Below, piece by piece: positions 2 through 7,261 of a stretch of 48,225 bases of DNA. The first letter of the stretch is position 1, and each line of letters begins with the position of its first letter. The translations under genes and the position numbers were made by a program. The notes under the pieces were generated by a model. It was not told the origin of the DNA, made no database searches, and saw nothing but the letters and a program-made list of their open reading frames with translations. Source of the DNA: a virus; the IMG/VR virus record IMGVR_UViG_3300027971_000072, positions 1 through 48,225 of that record, one strand, 5' to 3'.

Positions 2-1567
2 CGCGGTGCTATTGATGCGTTCTACGAAGACACTGACAAGCCTGTCATCATTGACAAGTCCCGTGGCTGGCCTATTGGTCAAATCATGGGCGCTATGTCA
101 CAGGTGCTAGGTCGTCAGCCTAAGATCATTGCTACTGTTCGTTCTGTTCCTGACTGTGCAGCCAGCTTCATCCGTGTAGCCAAACCCACAGATCTAGACG
201 AGTTTATGGCGACTGGTCAACTGATGGATCACCTTAAGGCCGCTTACATCTCCCTTCAGAACGGCTACGAGTACGCACCAGAAAACTTCCTGTTTGTTGA
301 ATACGAAGACCTGTTAGCCGACCCCAAAGCGCAGTTAGCCCGTATCCATGAGTTCCTTGAGTTACCTGAGTTTGCCTACGACTTTAATAACATTGACGGC
401 TCAAGCGTAGCTGAAGATGACGAGAACTTGCACGGTCACGCAGGTATGCACGATGTCAAGCCTGTATTGGCGGCGCAGCATAAGCAAGATCCCCGCGATT
501 TATTGAAGCACCACTACTCAGCATTCTGTCAGCCAGAGTTTTGGCTTGAGCGTCCACGCACAGTTCCTGAGTTACATGACCTAGACCTACAGCTTGCCGC
601 ATCCACAATGGGTGACTTTGCTGAAGGCTGGAGACTAGCTCAAAAGTTAGAAGCAGAAGAGCCTAACAATCATCGAGCCGCCTATAACCGTGGCTGGTAC
701 TACCTGCGTCAAGGTCAAATCCAAAAGGGCTACGGCTTGATGGACAGAGGACGAATCGTAGGTGTCTTTGGTAATTCACGCCCTGATGTGCCTACACCCC
801 AATGGGACGGCAAGACAAAGGGTACGGTCATGCTGTATCTGGAAGGCGGTCTGGGCGATCAGATTCACCAGATTCGCTATGCCAAGCTGATTGCAGAGCG
901 TGGCTGTAAAGTTGTTGTTTCCTGCACTGGCCCACTAGCATCATTGTTCCAAGGCGTAGAAGGCGTATCAGCGGTTGTTCAGCACGAGGCTACCTTTGGT
1001 ATCTACCACGACTTCTTTGTGTCTGGAATGTCTGCTGTGGTTCCTCTAGGGTTAGAACTTCGTGACCTGTCTGGTGCGCCATACCTTGAGAAGCCAATGT
1101 CGATCAAAGGCCGTAAAAAACGCATCGGTCTGCGCTGGCAAGGCAACAGTAAGTTTGAACATGAGCATCACAAGAAGTTCCCCTATGAACTTATGTTCGA
1201 CGCAGTAAAAGATGCTGACGCAGAGTTCATTTCATTACAGCGTGACGAGGGCGTAGACGCTTGCCCAGCTTGGGTAAAACAAGTACCATTACAGTCATGG
1301 GAAGACACTAGACAAGCGGTGGCTTCATGTGACTTGGTGATCTCAGCCTGTACCTCTGTCAGTCACTTGGCGGCGGCAATGGGCGTAGAAACATGGGTGG
1401 TAACTCCGATCATGCCTTACTTCTTATATGCAATTGACGGTGATAAAACGCCGTACTACGACAGCATGAAGCTGATTCGCCAAGAGGTTTATGGTGATTG
1501 GACTGCTCCGTTTGACAAGATCAAAGAGCGTGTTGGTTCTAAGCCAGCATTGAGGAGTGTAGCGTGA
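2..1567 (+). CDS. Sulfotransferase-TPR-GT9-like glycosyltransferase fusion, 5' end outside window
   Basis: The frame is open from base 2, so the start lies upstream; the first internal ATG is at 86. The N-terminal part looks like a PAPS-dependent sulfotransferase: a strand with IIDKSRGWP, then KIIATVRSVPDCAASFIRV, which resembles the 3'-phosphate-binding segment, then YEDLLADP. The usual 5'-phosphosulfate loop would be upstream and is not seen. A short TPR-like stretch (EEPNNHRAAYNRGWYYLRQG) follows. The C-terminal half resembles GT9/heptosyltransferase-like proteins (GGLGDQIHQIRYAKLIAERG, IGLRWQGNSKFE, CTSVSHLAAAMGVETWVV). Inference: it could transfer a sugar and a sulfate to the same acceptor. 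The stop overlaps the GTG of the next gene (GTGA). Domain assignment is by motif reading only; the acceptor is unknown. Confidence 0.65.
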   Translation, partial: RGAIDAFYEDTDKPVIIDKSRGWPIGQIMGAMSQVLGRQPKIIATVRSVPDCAASFIRVAKPTDLDEFMATGQLMDHLKAAYISLQNGYEYAPENFLFVEYEDLLADPKAQLARIHEFLELPEFAYDFNNIDGSSVAEDDENLHGHAGMHDVKPVLAAQHKQDPRDLLKHHYSAFCQPEFWLERPRTVPELHDLDLQLAASTMGDFAEGWRLAQKLEAEEPNNHRAAYNRGWYYLRQGQIQKGYGLMDRGRIVGVFGNSRPDVPTPQWDGKTKGTVMLYLEGGLGDQIHQIRYAKLIAERGCKVVVSCTGPLASLFQGVEGVSAVVQHEATFGIYHDFFVSGMSAVVPLGLELRDLSGAPYLEKPMSIKGRKKRIGLRWQGNSKFEHEHHKKFPYELMFDAVKDADAEFISLQRDEGVDACPAWVKQVPLQSWEDTRQAVASCDLVISACTSVSHLAAAMGVETWVVTPIMPYFLYAIDGDKTPYYDSMKLIRQEVYGDWTAPFDKIKERVGSKPALRSVA

Positions 1568-2691
1568 GCTTTAGATACGCCGCTGGGTTTAATTCGCCGG
1601 GGCTAAACACGCTTGTTCAAGGTACGCCTACCTATGTCTACAACTTATATGGTTGGGGTTACAACGCCAATGGGGAATTAGGTTTAGGGAATACAACTTA
1701 TGGTTTTTCTACCCCCCAACAAATTGGATCATTAACTACTTGGGCAACTTTTGCCGTAGGAGGTGCTTCGAGCGGGGCTATTAAAACAGATGGGACATTG
1801 TGGACTTGGGGCGGCAACGGTAATGGGCAATTAGGTCTTGGAAATACAACTTATTATTCATCGCCTAAACAAGTTGGTGCTTTGACTAACTGGGCTGGCA
1901 TAGTTTTTAGTGGTGCAAGCTCAATTGCTGTTAAAACAAATGGTACTTTGTGGTTTTGGGGAAACAACCCGTATGGCAATGGCAATGGCAATACAACCGT
2001 TTACTCGTCACCAGTACAAGTTGGCGCTTTAACTACTTGGTCAAAAGTGGCCGGTGGTAGTAATGCCGTAGGAGCCATTAAAACAGATGGAACAATGTGG
2101 ACTTGGGGGTTTAACCAATTTGGTAAATTGGGTCTTGATGATACAACAAACAGGTCAAGTCCCGTACAAGTTGGTGCTTTGACCACTTGGGCAAATGTTT
2201 TCTTTGGCTCAAGTCATTGTTTGGCAACACAAACAAATGGTAGTTTATGGGCTTGGGGTTATAACGCTTCAGGCCAATTAGGGTTGGGTAATACTACAAA
2301 TTATTCATCTCCAAAACAGGTTGGTTCATTAACAACTTGGTCTACTATTGGTGCTAACACTTATTCTTCGTATGCCATTAAAACTGATGGAACTTTTTGG
2401 AGTTGGGGTGGTAATTCTGAAGGTCAATTAGGTCTTGGTAACATTACTAATTACTCTAGCCCCAAACAAGTTGGTGCGTTAACAACTTGGTCATTTGTTG
2501 GCGCTAGAAGTGCAAGTGTTTCTGCCCTTAAAACTGATGGTACTTTGTGGTCTTGGGGTAATGGTTTTGCTGGTGGATTGGGTACAGGTAGCACAACAAA
2601 CAGATCATCACCCGTGCAGGTTGGAACCTCAACATTATGGTCAAAAATTTCCAACTCAACTAGTGGAAATTATTCCTTTGCGTTAGGTTAA
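1564..2691 (+). CDS. RCC1-repeat seven-bladed beta-propeller protein (first copy)
   Basis: 375 aa starting at a GTG that overlaps the previous stop. The protein is almost wholly built of about seven repeats of roughly 50 residues with the pattern AIKTDGTLWxWGxNxxGQLG followed by LGNTTxYSSPKQVGALTTW. This is the RCC1/BNR-type propeller signature, and seven repeats make a closed propeller. No signal peptide or membrane segment is visible. The coding DNA is visibly richer in A/T-ending codons than the flanking genes, which suggests a recombining cassette. In a phage, such a protein next to sugar-modifying genes and upstream of lysis genes is most simply a virion or host-surface binding protein. 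That role is inferred. Confidence 0.7.
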   Translation: MSFRYAAGFNSPGLNTLVQGTPTYVYNLYGWGYNANGELGLGNTTYGFSTPQQIGSLTTWATFAVGGASSGAIKTDGTLWTWGGNGNGQLGLGNTTYYSSPKQVGALTNWAGIVFSGASSIAVKTNGTLWFWGNNPYGNGNGNTTVYSSPVQVGALTTWSKVAGGSNAVGAIKTDGTMWTWGFNQFGKLGLDDTTNRSSPVQVGALTTWANVFFGSSHCLATQTNGSLWAWGYNASGQLGLGNTTNYSSPKQVGSLTTWSTIGANTYSSYAIKTDGTFWSWGGNSEGQLGLGNITNYSSPKQVGALTTWSFVGARSASVSALKTDGTLWSWGNGFAGGLGTGSTTNRSSPVQVGTSTLWSKISNSTSGNYSFALG

Positions 2692-2693
2692 AA

Positions 2694-3863
2694 ATGGCAA
2701 CACCAGTTTATCCATACACCCAATACTCAGGCATCTGGAACATCAGCAGTCAAGCCAATGCTATTGCGGCTGGAACTTGGCCTAGCCCACCTGCGCCAAA
2801 ATTATTTACGTGGGGTTCTGGAGCAAATGGAGTTTCAGGCCTTGGTAATACGACTTATTATTCTTCTCCAAAACAAGTTGGTGATTTAACAACATGGTTA
2901 ACAGTAACTGCTGGATATTTGTGTTCGTTTGCCATTAAAACAGATGGAACATTATGGTCGTGGGGCCAAAATGATTCAGGACAACTTGGCCTTGGAAACA
3001 TTACTGACTTTTCCAGCCCTAAACAAGTTGGTGCTTTGACAAACTGGTCAGATATACGTTCTTCTTATAGTTCATCTATTGCATTAAAAACTGATGGAAC
3101 TCTTTGGACTTGGGGAAATAATGCATATGGTCAATTAGGGATTGGTACTAGTGGTGCAGGAACTTATAAATCTTCACCTGTACAAGTTGGCGCTTTAACA
3201 ACTTGGTATAAAGTGGATTCTGGATATTTGTGTTCTTTTGCTATAAAGACAGATGGAACATTATGGTCGTGGGGTGGCAATGCTCAAGGACGACTAGGCC
3301 TTGGTAATACGACTTATTATTCTTCTCCAAAACAAGTTGGTGTTTTGACCACTTGGGCAAATATTTCATCTGCAATTGTTAATGGTTCTGTACTTGCAGT
3401 AAAAACTGACGGAACGTTATGGGCTTGGGGCGCTAATACAAATGGTCAATTGGGTCTTGGTAACACAACAAATTACAACTCTCCTGTACAGGTTGGATCT
3501 TTAACAAATTGGTTATCAGTAAAAATTAATCAAGTAAATACCGCCGCTGTTAAAACTGATGGGACATTGTGGACATGGGGTTACAATGCCTCTGGTCAAC
3601 TTGGACTTGGTAATACAACAAATTACTCATCACCTAAACAAGTGGGCGCTTTAACTAATTGGTTATATATTGCAACTGGAACTCAATTAACAAGTTCAAT
3701 AAAAACGAATGGCACACTTTGGAATTGGGGAAGAAATGGTGAAGGCCAACTTGGACTTGGTAACACAACCAATTATTCATCACCCAAACAAGTTGGCACG
3801 TCAACTGGTTGGAATAAAATTGCCGCAGGTGGAGTTCATCAAATTAGTATTCTTACCATTTAA
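2694..3863 (+). CDS. RCC1-repeat seven-bladed beta-propeller protein (second copy)
   Basis: 389 aa, starting two bases after the previous stop. It opens with a short unique N-terminus (MATPVYPYTQYSGIWNIS) and then carries seven RCC1-type repeats (KTDGTLWSWGxNxxGQLGLG and SSPKQVGALT). It is clearly a paralogue of the preceding gene; repeat units are interchangeable at both protein and DNA level. No strong ribosome site precedes the ATG (TTAGGTTAAAAATG), so translation may be coupled to the first copy. The A/T-rich codon use is shared with the first copy. The N-terminal unique part could be the virion-anchoring segment and the propeller the binding head; this is inference. Confidence 0.7.
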   Translation: MATPVYPYTQYSGIWNISSQANAIAAGTWPSPPAPKLFTWGSGANGVSGLGNTTYYSSPKQVGDLTTWLTVTAGYLCSFAIKTDGTLWSWGQNDSGQLGLGNITDFSSPKQVGALTNWSDIRSSYSSSIALKTDGTLWTWGNNAYGQLGIGTSGAGTYKSSPVQVGALTTWYKVDSGYLCSFAIKTDGTLWSWGGNAQGRLGLGNTTYYSSPKQVGVLTTWANISSAIVNGSVLAVKTDGTLWAWGANTNGQLGLGNTTNYNSPVQVGSLTNWLSVKINQVNTAAVKTDGTLWTWGYNASGQLGLGNTTNYSSPKQVGALTNWLYIATGTQLTSSIKTNGTLWNWGRNGEGQLGLGNTTNYSSPKQVGTSTGWNKIAAGGVHQISILTI

Positions 3864-3884: not shown

Positions 3885-4295
3885 ATGACACATTATGTAC
3901 AAGTCGTAAACGGCGAAATCAAGCAAGTCTGGGACACACCTCCCACAGAAGGCGTAGGCAATAACGGCTGGCGCAATGCTGTGGAAGTTCGTCCCGCAAT
4001 CACAGCACACCGTCAGGGTTACACTGCCCACCGCTTTGATCTGAACACTGATCCTGTTCAAATCATCTGGGACACATACGAAATCTCCGTGGCTGACCGC
4101 AAAAACGGTATGAAGTCCAACGCAGGTTTTGCATTCCAGCAAGTGGTGATGGAGCAGTCCCGCTTACAGCTTTCTCCTAACGCTAACGAGCAGTACGATG
4201 CTACAGCGGTAGAGACAGCGCGTCAGGCTATGTTGACCAAACAATCCGCTATTGATGCCGCTACGACTCACGACCAGCTTGACGCATTGCTGTAA
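3885..4295 (+). CDS. Hypothetical phage protein, 136 aa
   Basis: Not recognised with certainty. It has a good ribosome site (AAGGAG, 8 nt before the ATG) and a composition like the surrounding late genes rather than the A/T-rich propeller genes. The N-terminal half is beta-rich (MTHYVQVVNGEIKQVWDTPP, PVQIIWDTYEISVADR). The C-terminal half is helical and alanine/glutamine rich and ends with AATTHDQLDALL. Size, position after putative receptor-binding proteins and the two-part build recall small tail-fibre-associated or chaperone proteins, but no motif proves this. Confidence 0.7.
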   Translation: MTHYVQVVNGEIKQVWDTPPTEGVGNNGWRNAVEVRPAITAHRQGYTAHRFDLNTDPVQIIWDTYEISVADRKNGMKSNAGFAFQQVVMEQSRLQLSPNANEQYDATAVETARQAMLTKQSAIDAATTHDQLDALL

Positions 4296-4305
4296 GGGGT
4301 AACGA

Positions 4306-5091
4306 ATGAAACGCATCTTGGTGATGGGTTTACCCGGCGCGGGCAAGACATACCTAGCGCAACACATCCTCGACCACTTGCAAAACGAACGCAAGACGGT
4401 CATGTGGCTTAACGCCGATGATGTGCGTAAGAAGTACAACGACTGGGACTTTTCCCACGAGGGCCGTATTCGCCAAAGCCTGCGTATGCGTGAGTTGGCT
4501 GACAGCTACGATGTTGACTATGTGATTTGCGACTTTGTTGCCCCTCTAGTTGAGATGCGTAATAACTTCAAAGCTGACTGGACTATCTGGGTTGACACCA
4601 TCAATCAAGGTCGTTTTGAAGACACCAACAAGGTGTTTATTCCTCCGAAGGAATATGACTTCAGGATTACTGAGCAGAAGTCTGAGAAGTGGGGTGAGTT
4701 CATTGCCGCGCATATCTTGGATAACCGCCGCCGTCCTGTATTTGACTGGCAGAAAGAAACAGTTCAGATGCTTGGCAGATGGCAACCGTGGCACGCAGGA
4801 CACCGCAAGCTGTTTGAACGGGCACTGGCTAAGACTGGTCAAGTTGTGATCCAGATCAGAGACTGCCAAGGCTGGAACGGCTCTAACCCGTTTGCTGCTA
4901 ATCAGGTTAAAGAGTTTATTAGCCGTGATCTAGACCCACTGTATCAAGGTCAGTACGAAGTTCAACTGGTTCCTAACATTGTCAACATTACCTACGGGCG
5001 TGATGTTGGATACAAGATTGAGCAGGAATCTTTTGACGATGCTACCCACGCTATCTCGGCAACCAAGATACGCAAAGAGATGGGTGTGTGA
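4306..5091 (+). CDS. Adenylylsulfate kinase-like domain fused to HxGH nucleotidyltransferase domain
   Basis: 261 aa. Residues about 1-150 resemble APS kinase (CysC): a P-loop GLPGAGKT at about 8-15 and an NADDVRKKYNDWDFS segment matching the DGDxxR region. APS kinase makes PAPS, the sulfate donor of sulfotransferases. Residues about 158-261 form a nucleotidyltransferase domain: QMLGRWQPWHAGHRKLFERA with the HxGH nucleotide-binding motif, and ISATKIRKEM matching the ISSTxIR motif. The C-terminal part is much shorter than a full ATP sulfurylase and is more like NMN/cytidylyl/adenylyl transferases, so its substrate is open. The stop overlaps the start of the next gene (GTGTGA). Inferred role: PAPS supply for the sulfotransferase at the left end. 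Confidence 0.72.
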   Translation: MKRILVMGLPGAGKTYLAQHILDHLQNERKTVMWLNADDVRKKYNDWDFSHEGRIRQSLRMRELADSYDVDYVICDFVAPLVEMRNNFKADWTIWVDTINQGRFEDTNKVFIPPKEYDFRITEQKSEKWGEFIAAHILDNRRRPVFDWQKETVQMLGRWQPWHAGHRKLFERALAKTGQVVIQIRDCQGWNGSNPFAANQVKEFISRDLDPLYQGQYEVQLVPNIVNITYGRDVGYKIEQESFDDATHAISATKIRKEMGV

Positions 5092-5522
5092 TTGTCTTCA
5101 CCAACGGATGCTTTGATGTGCTTCATCGTGGGCATGTTGAGTATTTGGAGAAATCTAGAGCGTTGGGTGACAAGTTAGTTGTGGGTTTAAACTCAGATGC
5201 GTCTGTTCGGGAACTAAAGCCCGGCAGACCCATCAATTCCCAAGATGACCGAAAAGCTGTGCTGCTGGCGCTTCGCTGGGTAGATGAAGTCATTATCTTT
5301 GACGAACCCACACCGCTTGAGCTAATCCAACGGATTAGTCCTGACATCATTACGAAGGGCGCTGATTACAGCCCCGATCAAGTTGTCGGGTCAAGAATTG
5401 CCAAGCAAACAGTTATCATTCCTTTCTTAGATGGCTATTCATCAACAAGGATAATCAATGCAACTCAAGGGCATAGTAAACAAGGGCTGGGGGTCGGAGC
5501 TAATCTGGGCTACCAACGATAA
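5088..5522 (+). CDS. hldE (C-terminal domain): HldE C-terminal-type D-glycero-beta-D-manno-heptose-1-phosphate adenylyltransferase
   Basis: 144 aa from a GTG at 5088. It is a stand-alone version of the adenylyltransferase half of HldE/RfaE: FTNGCFDVLHRGHVEYLEKS (HxGH motif), VGLNSDASVRELKPGRPIN, WVDEVIIFDEPTPLELIQ, PDIITKGADY and GYSSTRII all match the family in order. The reaction is ATP + heptose-1-phosphate to ADP-heptose. The last ~20 residues after the family's usual end overlap the next gene in another frame by 65 nt, an unusually long overlap. In Enterobacteria this domain is fused behind the kinase; here it is separate and comes first. Related glycerol-3-phosphate cytidylyltransferases are the main alternative, but the heptose-type segments fit better. 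Confidence 0.85.
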   Translation: MIVFTNGCFDVLHRGHVEYLEKSRALGDKLVVGLNSDASVRELKPGRPINSQDDRKAVLLALRWVDEVIIFDEPTPLELIQRISPDIITKGADYSPDQVVGSRIAKQTVIIPFLDGYSSTRIINATQGHSKQGLGVGANLGYQR

Positions 5523-5820
5523 GTACTGCGGAAAGCTGATGACCTTTAAAAAGGATGCTAAGTTTTCCATGCACTTCCATGCAGAAAAAGATGAGACTTG
5601 GCTAGTCCAAGGTGGCTTATTTAAGGTCATCTGGATAGATACCAAAGACGCCAGCCGCCATGAGAAGATCCTTAACATTGGGGACACATGGCATAACCCA
5701 CCATTACTCCCTCACCAGCTAGTTTGCCTAGCAGCAGGTGTGATCTTAGAAGTCTCAACTGCTGATTCCGTAGAAGACAACTATCGAGTTGAGCCGGGGG
5801 ACAGTCAATGCGTATCTTAG
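5458..5820 (+). CDS. Single-domain cupin, probable sugar-phosphate isomerase or binding protein
   Basis: 120 aa small cupin. The metal-site residues are visible: H39, H41 and E46 in HFHAEKDETW, and H86 in PPLLPHQLV. This type is close to mannose-6-phosphate isomerase type II and related sugar cupins. The start at 5458 has an AAGGA-like site seven to nine bases upstream, and it lies 65 nt inside the adenylyltransferase gene. It sits between two genes of ADP-heptose synthesis, so it may act on a sugar phosphate or nucleotide sugar in the same route. Substrate and reaction cannot be read from the sequence. Confidence 0.75.
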   Translation: MQLKGIVNKGWGSELIWATNDKYCGKLMTFKKDAKFSMHFHAEKDETWLVQGGLFKVIWIDTKDASRHEKILNIGDTWHNPPLLPHQLVCLAAGVILEVSTADSVEDNYRVEPGDSQCVS

Positions 5821-6518
5821 TCATCGGTGATGGTTGCATCGACGAGTACCGCTATGGCGAGATACGCAGGGTAAATCCAGAATCTACTGCGCCATTGTTG
5901 AACTTTGAAGACAGTGAAGAGAAACTTGGCATGGCGTTTAACGTGGCTAAGAATCTTAGGTCTTTTGGTGCAGTGGTAGAACTTCTTGTTCCAACTGAAA
6001 TGTCCCGAAAAATTAGGTACATAGACCGTAGAACAGGAGAACATCTACTTAGAGTAGACCATGACGTACAAGCTCAGTCTTGTTTAGTCGGTAGTAAGTA
6101 CATGTTTGATGCCATAGTTATCTCTGACTATGATAAGGGTTTTGTAACCAATGAGGTCATCTGGAAACTGCGGCAGAAGTTTCAAGGGCCTATCTACATG
6201 GATACCAAGAAAAAGAACTTGGCTGATTTTCCCGGCATCTACATCAAGATTAACCAGCGGGAACTGTACGAATCTACATCTATCCCAGATCCAGAACATT
6301 TAATTGTTACTTACGGGGCTAAAGGATGCGGATATAAAGATTCACTCTATCCGGCTAAGGTGATAGAAGTTGTGGATGTTTGCGGGGCAGGCGATGTATT
6401 CCTAGCAGCTATGGTGTACAAGCACATACAGACTGGGGACATGAATATAGCCCTACCATTTGCCAACGAGAAGGCGGCAATATCTTGCCAGAGCATAGGG
6501 GCTGTATGCGTATCCTGA
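5808..6518 (+). CDS. hldE (N-terminal domain): HldE N-terminal-type (PfkB/ribokinase family) heptose-7-phosphate kinase, short form
   Basis: 236 aa. Family features in order: ILVIGDGCIDEYRYGEIRRVNPE at the N-terminus, GMAFNVAKNLRSFGA (the GGAxNVAxNL motif of RfaE kinases), DAIVISDYDKGF, YMDTKKKN, KINQRELYE, and the catalytic DVCGAGDVFLAA anion-hole motif near residue 190. The reaction is phosphorylation of heptose-7-phosphate at C1. At 236 residues it is shorter than the usual ~310-residue kinase domain; the middle region around RKIRYIDRRTGEHLLRVDHD is shortened. It overlaps both neighbours, showing tight co-translation. Activity despite the shortening is uncertain. Confidence 0.82.
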   Translation: MRILVIGDGCIDEYRYGEIRRVNPESTAPLLNFEDSEEKLGMAFNVAKNLRSFGAVVELLVPTEMSRKIRYIDRRTGEHLLRVDHDVQAQSCLVGSKYMFDAIVISDYDKGFVTNEVIWKLRQKFQGPIYMDTKKKNLADFPGIYIKINQRELYESTSIPDPEHLIVTYGAKGCGYKDSLYPAKVIEVVDVCGAGDVFLAAMVYKHIQTGDMNIALPFANEKAAISCQSIGAVCVS

Positions 6519-7261
6519 TTACTGGATATAAAGGTTTTATTGGCCAGAACATGGTCAAAGCCATGTCAGATCACGAGCTAGACTTGTGTGAATGGGGTGA
6601 TGAGTATTCCCTCTATGGAATAGATAGGGTTATTCACTTAGGCGCAATCTCAGATACACGCTGTAATGACTGGGCAGCTTTGCGTAAACAAAACGTGGGC
6701 TTTACCGTTACGCTTATGGAACGGTGTCAGGAGTATGGAATACCTATCCAACTAGCATCTTCAGCTTCAGTCTACGGGCCAGATAACATCACGTTTAAAG
6801 AGACTGATCCGGTAGCCCCTGCCAACATGTACGCAGAATCTAAAGCTTTGATTGAGCAGTATTTTCATAAGATGCAGCCTGTTTCGCCCGTGCAGATCTT
6901 TAGGTACTTTAATGTCTATGGCCCACACGAAGACCATAAAGGCGATCAGGCTTCTCCGTTTCACAAGTTTCGAGAGCAGGCAAAGACTGGGACAATTAAG
7001 ATATTTGAAGGTTCAGAAAACTTTAAACGTGACTTTATCCATGTGGACAAGGTAATTGATGTTCACAAGAAGTTTTTAAAAGTTAACGATTCTGGGATTT
7101 GGAACGTTGGGACGGGAGAAACAATGTCTTTTTTGGATGTTGCTCGCTTGGCAGCAGATGAATTTTCAGCGAAAATAGAAACAATTCCAATGCCTATATT
7201 GGGTGGTTATCAAATGTATACGTGTGCTGACATGACCAAATTGAATGGGATATTAAAGTGA
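6506..7261 (+). CDS. hldD: HldD-type ADP-L-glycero-D-manno-heptose 6-epimerase (SDR family)
   Basis: About 251 aa from the ATG at 6506 (MRILITGYKGFIGQN). This start is chosen because the Rossmann fold begins there; an upstream in-frame ATG at 6380 would add 42 meaningless residues read inside the kinase gene. NAD-binding GYKGFIG, catalytic YAESK (YxxxK) and the HldD-specific stretch YFNVYGPHEDHKG plus FEGSENFKRDFIHVDKV are all present, followed by GIWNVGTGETMSF. HldD converts ADP-D-glycero- to ADP-L-glycero-D-manno-heptose, the LPS inner-core donor. It closes the cassette APS kinase, adenylyltransferase, cupin, kinase, epimerase. GmhA and GmhB homologues are not in the window. Confidence 0.87.
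   Translation: MRILITGYKGFIGQNMVKAMSDHELDLCEWGDEYSLYGIDRVIHLGAISDTRCNDWAALRKQNVGFTVTLMERCQEYGIPIQLASSASVYGPDNITFKETDPVAPANMYAESKALIEQYFHKMQPVSPVQIFRYFNVYGPHEDHKGDQASPFHKFREQAKTGTIKIFEGSENFKRDFIHVDKVIDVHKKFLKVNDSGIWNVGTGETMSFLDVARLAADEFSAKIETIPMPILGGYQMYTCADMTKLNGILK

Follow-up and report, generated by a model that had tools for sequence, protein, structure and literature searches.

The two kinds of enzyme that come together in the phage protein described here are already known. On one side are sulfotransferases of the PF13469 type such as TPST1/2, in which the catalytic Glu lies in the GEETR segment. On the other are GT-B glycosyltransferases (GTs), comprising the lipopolysaccharide (LPS) heptosyltransferases WaaC and WaaF (GT9, PF01075) and the bacterial autotransporter heptosyltransferases (BAHT), among them TibC, a protein O-heptosyltransferase whose catalytic base is Asp110 (PMC4358343). 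Heptosyltransferases carry the signature D261(T/S)(G/A)xxH266, though WahF has Ser at the Asp261 position (PMC3559599), and the D261A substitution lowers WaaC activity about 2000-fold (PMC5713226). In phages, cysC genes of freshwater viromes have been interpreted as assimilatory sulfate reduction (PMC10914622), and the role of phage sulfotransferases has been termed unclear (PMC10580990). In searches of the open-access literature on phage sulfotransferases with glycosylation, we found no module of the kind reported below; the fusion of these enzymes in a phage and its gene linkage look new.

Here, we analyzed the whole linear virus record IMGVR_UViG_3300027971_000072 (48,225 bases; the window). 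The features discussed are as follows, with residues numbered after an intact 589-aa relative (locus L008), in which residue 69 corresponds to amino acid 1 of the window protein.

2..1567, + strand: fused sulfotransferase-TPR-GT gene; visible part 521 aa, 5' end lost at the record edge
2..556, + strand: sulfotransferase domain, residues 69-253 (Pfam, conservation, fold)
56-58, + strand: Lys87, sulfotransferase domain
140-142, + strand: Arg115, sulfotransferase domain, 3'-phosphate pair
164-166, + strand: Ser123, sulfotransferase domain, 3'-phosphate pair
575..757, + strand: TPR-like helical link, about residues 260-320 (weak Pfam TPR; helices H261-H317 in the model)
821..1552, + strand: GT-B (GT9-like) domain, residues 342-585 (fold, alignment)
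857-859, + strand: Asp354, WaaC Asp13 position (alignment)
1349-1351, + strand: Cys518, WaaC Asp261 position (alignment)
1364-1366, + strand: His523, WaaC His266 position (alignment)
1564..2691, + strand: RCC1-repeat beta-propeller protein (Pfam, sequence, linkage)
2694..3863, + strand: second RCC1-repeat protein (N-terminal QYSGIWN...AIAAGTWP segment)
3885..4295, + strand: 136-aa conserved neighbour (57/62 loci)
4306..5091, + strand: APS-kinase-like domain fused to an NMNAT/cytidylyltransferase-like domain, phrog_10255 (Pfam, profiles)
5088..5522, + strand: HldE domain II-like heptose-1-phosphate adenylyltransferase, optional (163 bits versus a cut-off of 181.5)
5458..5820, + strand: cupin, phrog_7851, optional (family match, linkage)
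5808..6518, + strand: short HldE domain I-like (PfkB) kinase, optional (family matches)
6506..7261, + strand: HldD-like epimerase, optional (family matches)

Relative to intact copies, the record edge removes 68 N-terminal residues from a protein of about 590 aa; these copies start 68 residues earlier, with MNKTLHFLSGIPRSGSTVLAAILNQNP. A scan found 106 related viral-contig stretches, and the 80 loci kept carry mostly full-length genes (67 to 99% identity). Because so many intact copies exist among the relatives, a chance frame or a frameshift artefact at 2-1567 is ruled out. The full gene encodes, in order, the sulfotransferase, the TPR-like link, and the C-terminal GT-B domain. Pfam, fold, and intact relatives thus agree with the initial annotation that these three parts share one frame, and domain order and folds support its proposal that one polypeptide could carry both a sulfotransferase and a glycosyltransferase. 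The two enzyme types are well supported; the catalytic activity of the fused protein is predicted from them. Many freshwater phages carry the fused gene, and no INPHARED record covered 80% of the query, nor was the fusion seen there. A phmmer search of the truncated protein against the PDB returned chance TPR-type matches only, and profiles were needed for the comparisons below.

The N-terminal part of the window protein matched Sulfotransfer_3 (1.4e-10) and also Sulfotransfer_1 above the Pfam cut-offs, and the family test (PF13469/PF00685) gave 60.6 bits against a cut-off of 27. The 5'-PSB loop lies upstream of the start of the record, out of sight of the initial annotation; intact copies show it as IPRSGSTVLAA. 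Across 31 diverse sequences, G10, R13, S14, G15, W91, R115, and S123 are invariant, and the eight-residue spacing of the last two matches the 3'-phosphate site of PAPS enzymes. Since the N-terminal half of the first full-length model was poor, this domain was remodelled from a diverse alignment (mean pLDDT, 93.6). Its top structural matches were TPST1/2 (Z 19.3 to 18.4, the former for TPST1; rmsd 3.5 to 3.9; 238 to 242 residues), followed by the olefin-synthase and CurM sulfotransferases (Z 16.0 and 15.9) and the heparan 3-O-sulfotransferases (Z about 14). TPST1 was also the best PDB sequence match of the profile (2.1e-12). Loop, Arg/Ser pair, family score, and modelled fold together indicate a half that is probably PAPS dependent, with an intact PAPS site.

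The phage protein shares with TPST1/2 the whole-domain fold, the PRSG loop, and the Lys and Arg/Ser PAPS contacts. In contrast, identity is about 15%, the phage protein is soluble and fused to a GT, and in the profile alignment with TPST1 the GEETR segment faces other residues. Because this catalytic Glu segment is not kept, we do not file the sulfotransferase half as a TPST despite its TPST-like fold. This difference also bears on the idea of two separate protein modifications, tyrosine sulfation and sugar transfer, on the same or different proteins. While fold and profile comparisons both clearly rank TPST1/2 first and the two halves also exist as separate genes, the substitution of the GEETR region across the phage family, RCC1 tyrosines that by reading lie in no acidic context, and the repeated pairing of the halves, which suggests a shared product, make this idea quite improbable. 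Closer to home, phrog_27463 of cyanophages S-SKS1 and S-SRM01 belongs to the same sulfotransferase family as the fused protein but stands alone in those phages.

Downstream of the sulfotransferase domain, Pfam gave a weak TPR match (residues 199-242 of the window protein) and nothing above its cut-off for the C-terminal part. The intact relative in L008 scored 11.1 bits for PF01075 (cut-off 22), and a bacterial homologue of the C-terminal part (L111) scored 32.6 bits, above the cut-off. In the full-length model (mean pLDDT 71, C-terminal half mostly 80 to 90), residues 342-582 matched WaaC (Z 15.4, 227 residues), TibC (14.9), WaaF (14.4), and a GT9 of V. parvula (14.2). Fold comparison therefore bears out the initial assignment of both halves, a TPST-like N-terminal domain and a GT-B C-terminal domain for which WaaC and TibC rank among the best matches. 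The WaaC Asp13 position is Asp in all 17 fused-clade copies and in 46 of the 47 split copies, the remaining one having a gap, and the His266 position is conserved. The signature reads CTSVSH in the phage GT, with His kept and Asp replaced by Cys; all phage copies share this Cys (47 split and 17 fused-clade copies plus S-SRM01), whereas 30 of the 32 bacterial TPR-GT9 homologues keep Asp. Lys459 could be read as the equivalent of WaaC K192, in a column that aligned unreliably.

Relative to WaaC/WaaF, then, the phage GT keeps the fold and the Asp13 and His266 positions but differs in the Cys, in falling below the Pfam GT9 cut-off, and in its TPR link. With BAHT it shares the GT-B fold and a catalytic Asp in a loop of the same type (PMC4358343) and, as far as is proposed here, a protein acceptor; however, identity is about 11%, the phage enzyme is fused to a sulfotransferase, and its acceptor would be RCC1 rather than an autotransporter. 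Bacterial TPR-GT9-like proteins belong to the same GT family (E down to 5e-53), which is common in bacteria (72/299 sampled genomes of one phylum). Two of them (L117 and L128) also carry a Sulfotransfer_3 domain, so the fusion is not unique to phages; these chains have the reverse domain order, keep Asp at the 261 position, and fall elsewhere in the GT tree.

The donor sugar is a point on which the initial annotation was more specific, placing ADP-heptose genes 2.7 kb downstream of the fused gene and naming a sulfated heptose as the logical product. A sugar-nucleotide block does start at that distance, but its first gene (4306-5091) is the APS-kinase-like/nucleotidyltransferase fusion, and heptose-type genes proper start 3.5 kb downstream. 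For the HldE/HldD genes (5088-7261), NCBIfam bits/cut-offs were 163/181.5, 104.5/345, and 195.2/274.6, all below the cut-offs and still the best matches. The HldE domain I-like product (5808-6518) has 236 aa against a 315-position model, which it matches in three stretches; we read it as a trimmed sugar kinase. The phrog_7851 cupin, labelled cysteine dioxygenase, is encoded between the two HldE-type genes and co-occurs with them. We recognised neither gmhA nor gmhB in the record.

Only 13/45 fused-gene loci have the heptose block, ruling it out as a constant partner of the fused gene; heptose genes occur in 10/48 loci of a second phage group with split genes (see below). These frequencies and the heptosyltransferase fold with its Asp13 and His266 positions are what can be said for an ADP-heptose donor and a sulfated heptose on protein or LPS, a reading that overlaps with those of tail-protein and host-glycan modification. 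Most loci lack the block, however, gmhA and gmhB are missing from the genes recognised, and all phage copies have Cys at a position whose replacement is costly in WaaC, though occupied by Ser in WahF. Given the optional genes and the Cys, a sulfated heptose is possible but not proven, and we consider it unlikely.

The neighbours that do recur are RCC1-repeat genes, found near the fused gene in 73/76 loci with enough sequence and directly upstream of it in 69/74. The RCC1 gene that directly follows has a four-base stop/start overlap in 39/59 loci, as in the window, where the fused gene's TGA stop and the GTG start of RCC1 share four bases. Multicopy arrays of RCC1 genes flank the fused gene on either side, amounting to 239 ORFs in 83 loci. 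Upstream of them lie further structural-type tail-region genes, named by sequence and position and without family matches; from this gene position, the RCC1 proteins are probably part of the virion. The 136-aa neighbour (3885-4295) had no family match and is likely, from its position, of the tail-fibre-assembly type. Since the sampled loci are related to one another, the counts overstate independence, and an RCC1-anchored scan had little value as an independent test, as it returned the same phage group. In some relatives, ORFs read as homing-endonuclease-like lie directly behind the fused gene or inside the RCC1 array (L037:9572-10126 and 18 loci of cluster 15; L109:2671-3303).

In the second phage group, GT and sulfotransferase are separate adjacent genes (identity about 37% and 27 to 32%, respectively) in the order GT-sulfotransferase, the reverse of the fusion. 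An origin of the fusion by simple stop loss between two genes is therefore unlikely. Among loci of at least 9 kb in this group, the split pair and RCC1 were each present in 44/44 and the APS-kinase-like gene in 28/44, and RCC1 ended 4 to 62 bases before the GT in 39/43. Fifty-seven long loci were recruited through the APS-kinase-like gene; the sulfotransferase was present in 22 of them, and GT and RCC1 co-occurred (16/0/2/39; Fisher 2.6e-12, relatedness not corrected for), with the fused gene elsewhere on the contig in both exceptions.

Related arrangements were observed in cultured and marine phages. Cyanophage S-SRM01 has, in order, a long tail fibre distal subunit, two RCC1 genes, TPR-GT, a 2OG oxygenase, RCC1, and the sulfotransferase, with a beta-1,4-glycosyltransferase and an epimerase near the module. 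BUCT-ZZ01 has tail fibre, RCC1, and GT, and marine AG-345-E08 has RCC1, 2OG oxygenases, GT, RCC1, and sulfotransferase. The RCC1 proteins are gp335, gp337, and gp344 in S-SRM01 and UTS52180.1 in BUCT-ZZ01, a Synechococcus phage whose host is PCC 7942. As an exception, podovirus ctDrO704 has the GT near a capsid gene and no RCC1. The bacterial contig L111 carries, by reading of its sequences, cysD-, cysN-, and cysC-type genes; its sulfotransferase and its TPR-GT9 each stand alone, and GT41-type and GT2 genes are also present. The phage fusions group in a single clade of the GT tree (0.99), with the L111 gene as sister (0.78) and the split group next (0.94). The bacterial fusions are placed elsewhere, indicating that sulfotransferase and GT were joined at least twice. 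The initial observation is thus confirmed and widened to a recurrent module of an RCC1 propeller, a GT9-like GT, and a sulfotransferase, which is often joined by an APS-kinase-like gene and in some loci by donor-sugar genes. In the marine and cyanophage versions, 2OG-Fe(II) oxygenases flank the GT (L420:5471-8535; L409:7614-8072), where hydroxylation could precede glycosylation.

That the RCC1 linkage holds across several diverged groups, whether the two halves are fused or split and whichever comes first, speaks against a mere passenger, that is, a cargo enzyme in a variable region whose substrate is a small molecule or protein of the host. Homing-endonuclease and methyltransferase genes also come and go around the fused gene, as such a passenger would; still, we judge this explanation very improbable.

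The APS-kinase-like gene is present in 51/55 fused-gene loci with enough sequence. It occurs in two forms that occupy the same site in different phages, short or fused to the nucleotidyltransferase, with the kinase domain common to both. The window gene (4306-5091) scored 37.8 bits for Pfam APS_kinase (cut-off 21.1) and 41.5 bits for NCBIfam PRK05541.1, below the cut-off of 127; the best PDB relatives of the kinase profile were all APS kinases (2.6e-14). The CysC motifs DGDN and EN.RR are absent from the kinase, which has NADD/NADE and EQARR or RQSLR instead, and homologues also occur in phages without this sulfotransferase; in INPHARED, records for the kinase and sulfotransferase queries do not overlap among the matches listed. 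For these reasons, PAPS supply by this gene is only plausible. Like the cysC genes of freshwater viromes it is an APS-kinase-type gene on freshwater phages, but those were read as assimilatory sulfate reduction (PMC10914622), whereas the homologue here lies near a PAPS-type sulfotransferase. Stenotrophomonas phage Bhz60 has the same kinase-nucleotidyltransferase architecture, adjoining a NADAR gene.

The constant neighbours, RCC1 and the APS-kinase-like gene, point to virion proteins as the acceptor and to PAPS supply. Together with the intact PAPS site, the TPST-like fold, a GT-B domain nearest to WaaC and TibC, the split group, S-SRM01, BUCT-ZZ01, AG-345-E08, and L111, they lead us to favour, at somewhat short of even confidence, glycosylation and sulfation of tail-region proteins, most likely RCC1, by a bifunctional phage enzyme. 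The TPR-like link and GT9-like half would bind the acceptor, most likely the co-encoded RCC1 beta-propellers, and the GT would transfer a sugar from a nucleotide sugar, with ADP-heptose as a candidate donor. The PAPS-dependent half would then sulfate that sugar or a nearby side chain. In the infected cell, the APS-kinase-like neighbour may raise PAPS and the optional heptose block donor supply. The outcome would be a charged, variable adhesin decoration for receptor binding, stability, or escape. Acceptor, donor, PAPS supply, order of steps, and benefit are all proposed on the basis of gene content and similarity. Against modification of tail proteins, the linkage may reflect only a variable tail-region cassette, the ctDrO704 GT lacks RCC1, and the kinase lacks CysC motifs and has homologues without this sulfotransferase.

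Alternatively, the enzyme may act on a glycan of the host surface (LPS core or capsule), to which the GT9-like half would add a residue that the other half sulfates, so that the receptor is changed and other phages are excluded. The top fold match, WaaC, is an LPS heptosyltransferase I, some loci have heptose and epimerase genes downstream, and S-SRM01 has its beta-1,4-glycosyltransferase and epimerase near by. However, the gene sits inside a tail-gene array and is coupled to RCC1, not to the optional sugar genes, and the sulfotransferase is nearest to protein sulfotransferases, making a host glycan a rather unlikely target.

Extending tail-protein modification beyond this locus, we offer as a doubtful but possible generalization that tailed phages have a complete sulfation pathway of their own, made up of APS kinase for PAPS, sulfotransferase, glycosyltransferase, and in some cases donor-sugar genes, and use it to attach sulfated sugars to their RCC1 tail proteins, that fused and split forms arose more than once, and that some cysC-type genes serve sulfation and not sulfate assimilation. 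If true, phages would encode a route of their own to sulfated virion glycoproteins, for which we found no description. The sulfotransferase family phrog_27463, listed as unknown, and the tail-region RCC1 arrays would then gain a function, as might some of the phage cysC-type genes at present assigned to sulfate assimilation. The proposal is directly testable, since S-SRM01 and BUCT-ZZ01, which have the module or half of it, are cultured cyanophages.

Two minor observations concern the distribution of these genes. A second, stand-alone sulfotransferase lies downstream of the fused gene or kinase in L156 and L182 and on the contigs of L162, L164, and L039. Four loci with the fused gene beside RCC1 (L107, L108, L109, and L110) come from contigs assigned to MAGs of Halothiobacillus, Betaproteobacteria, Phycisphaerales, and Methylobacter, but resemble phage sequence that was binned together with bacterial DNA.
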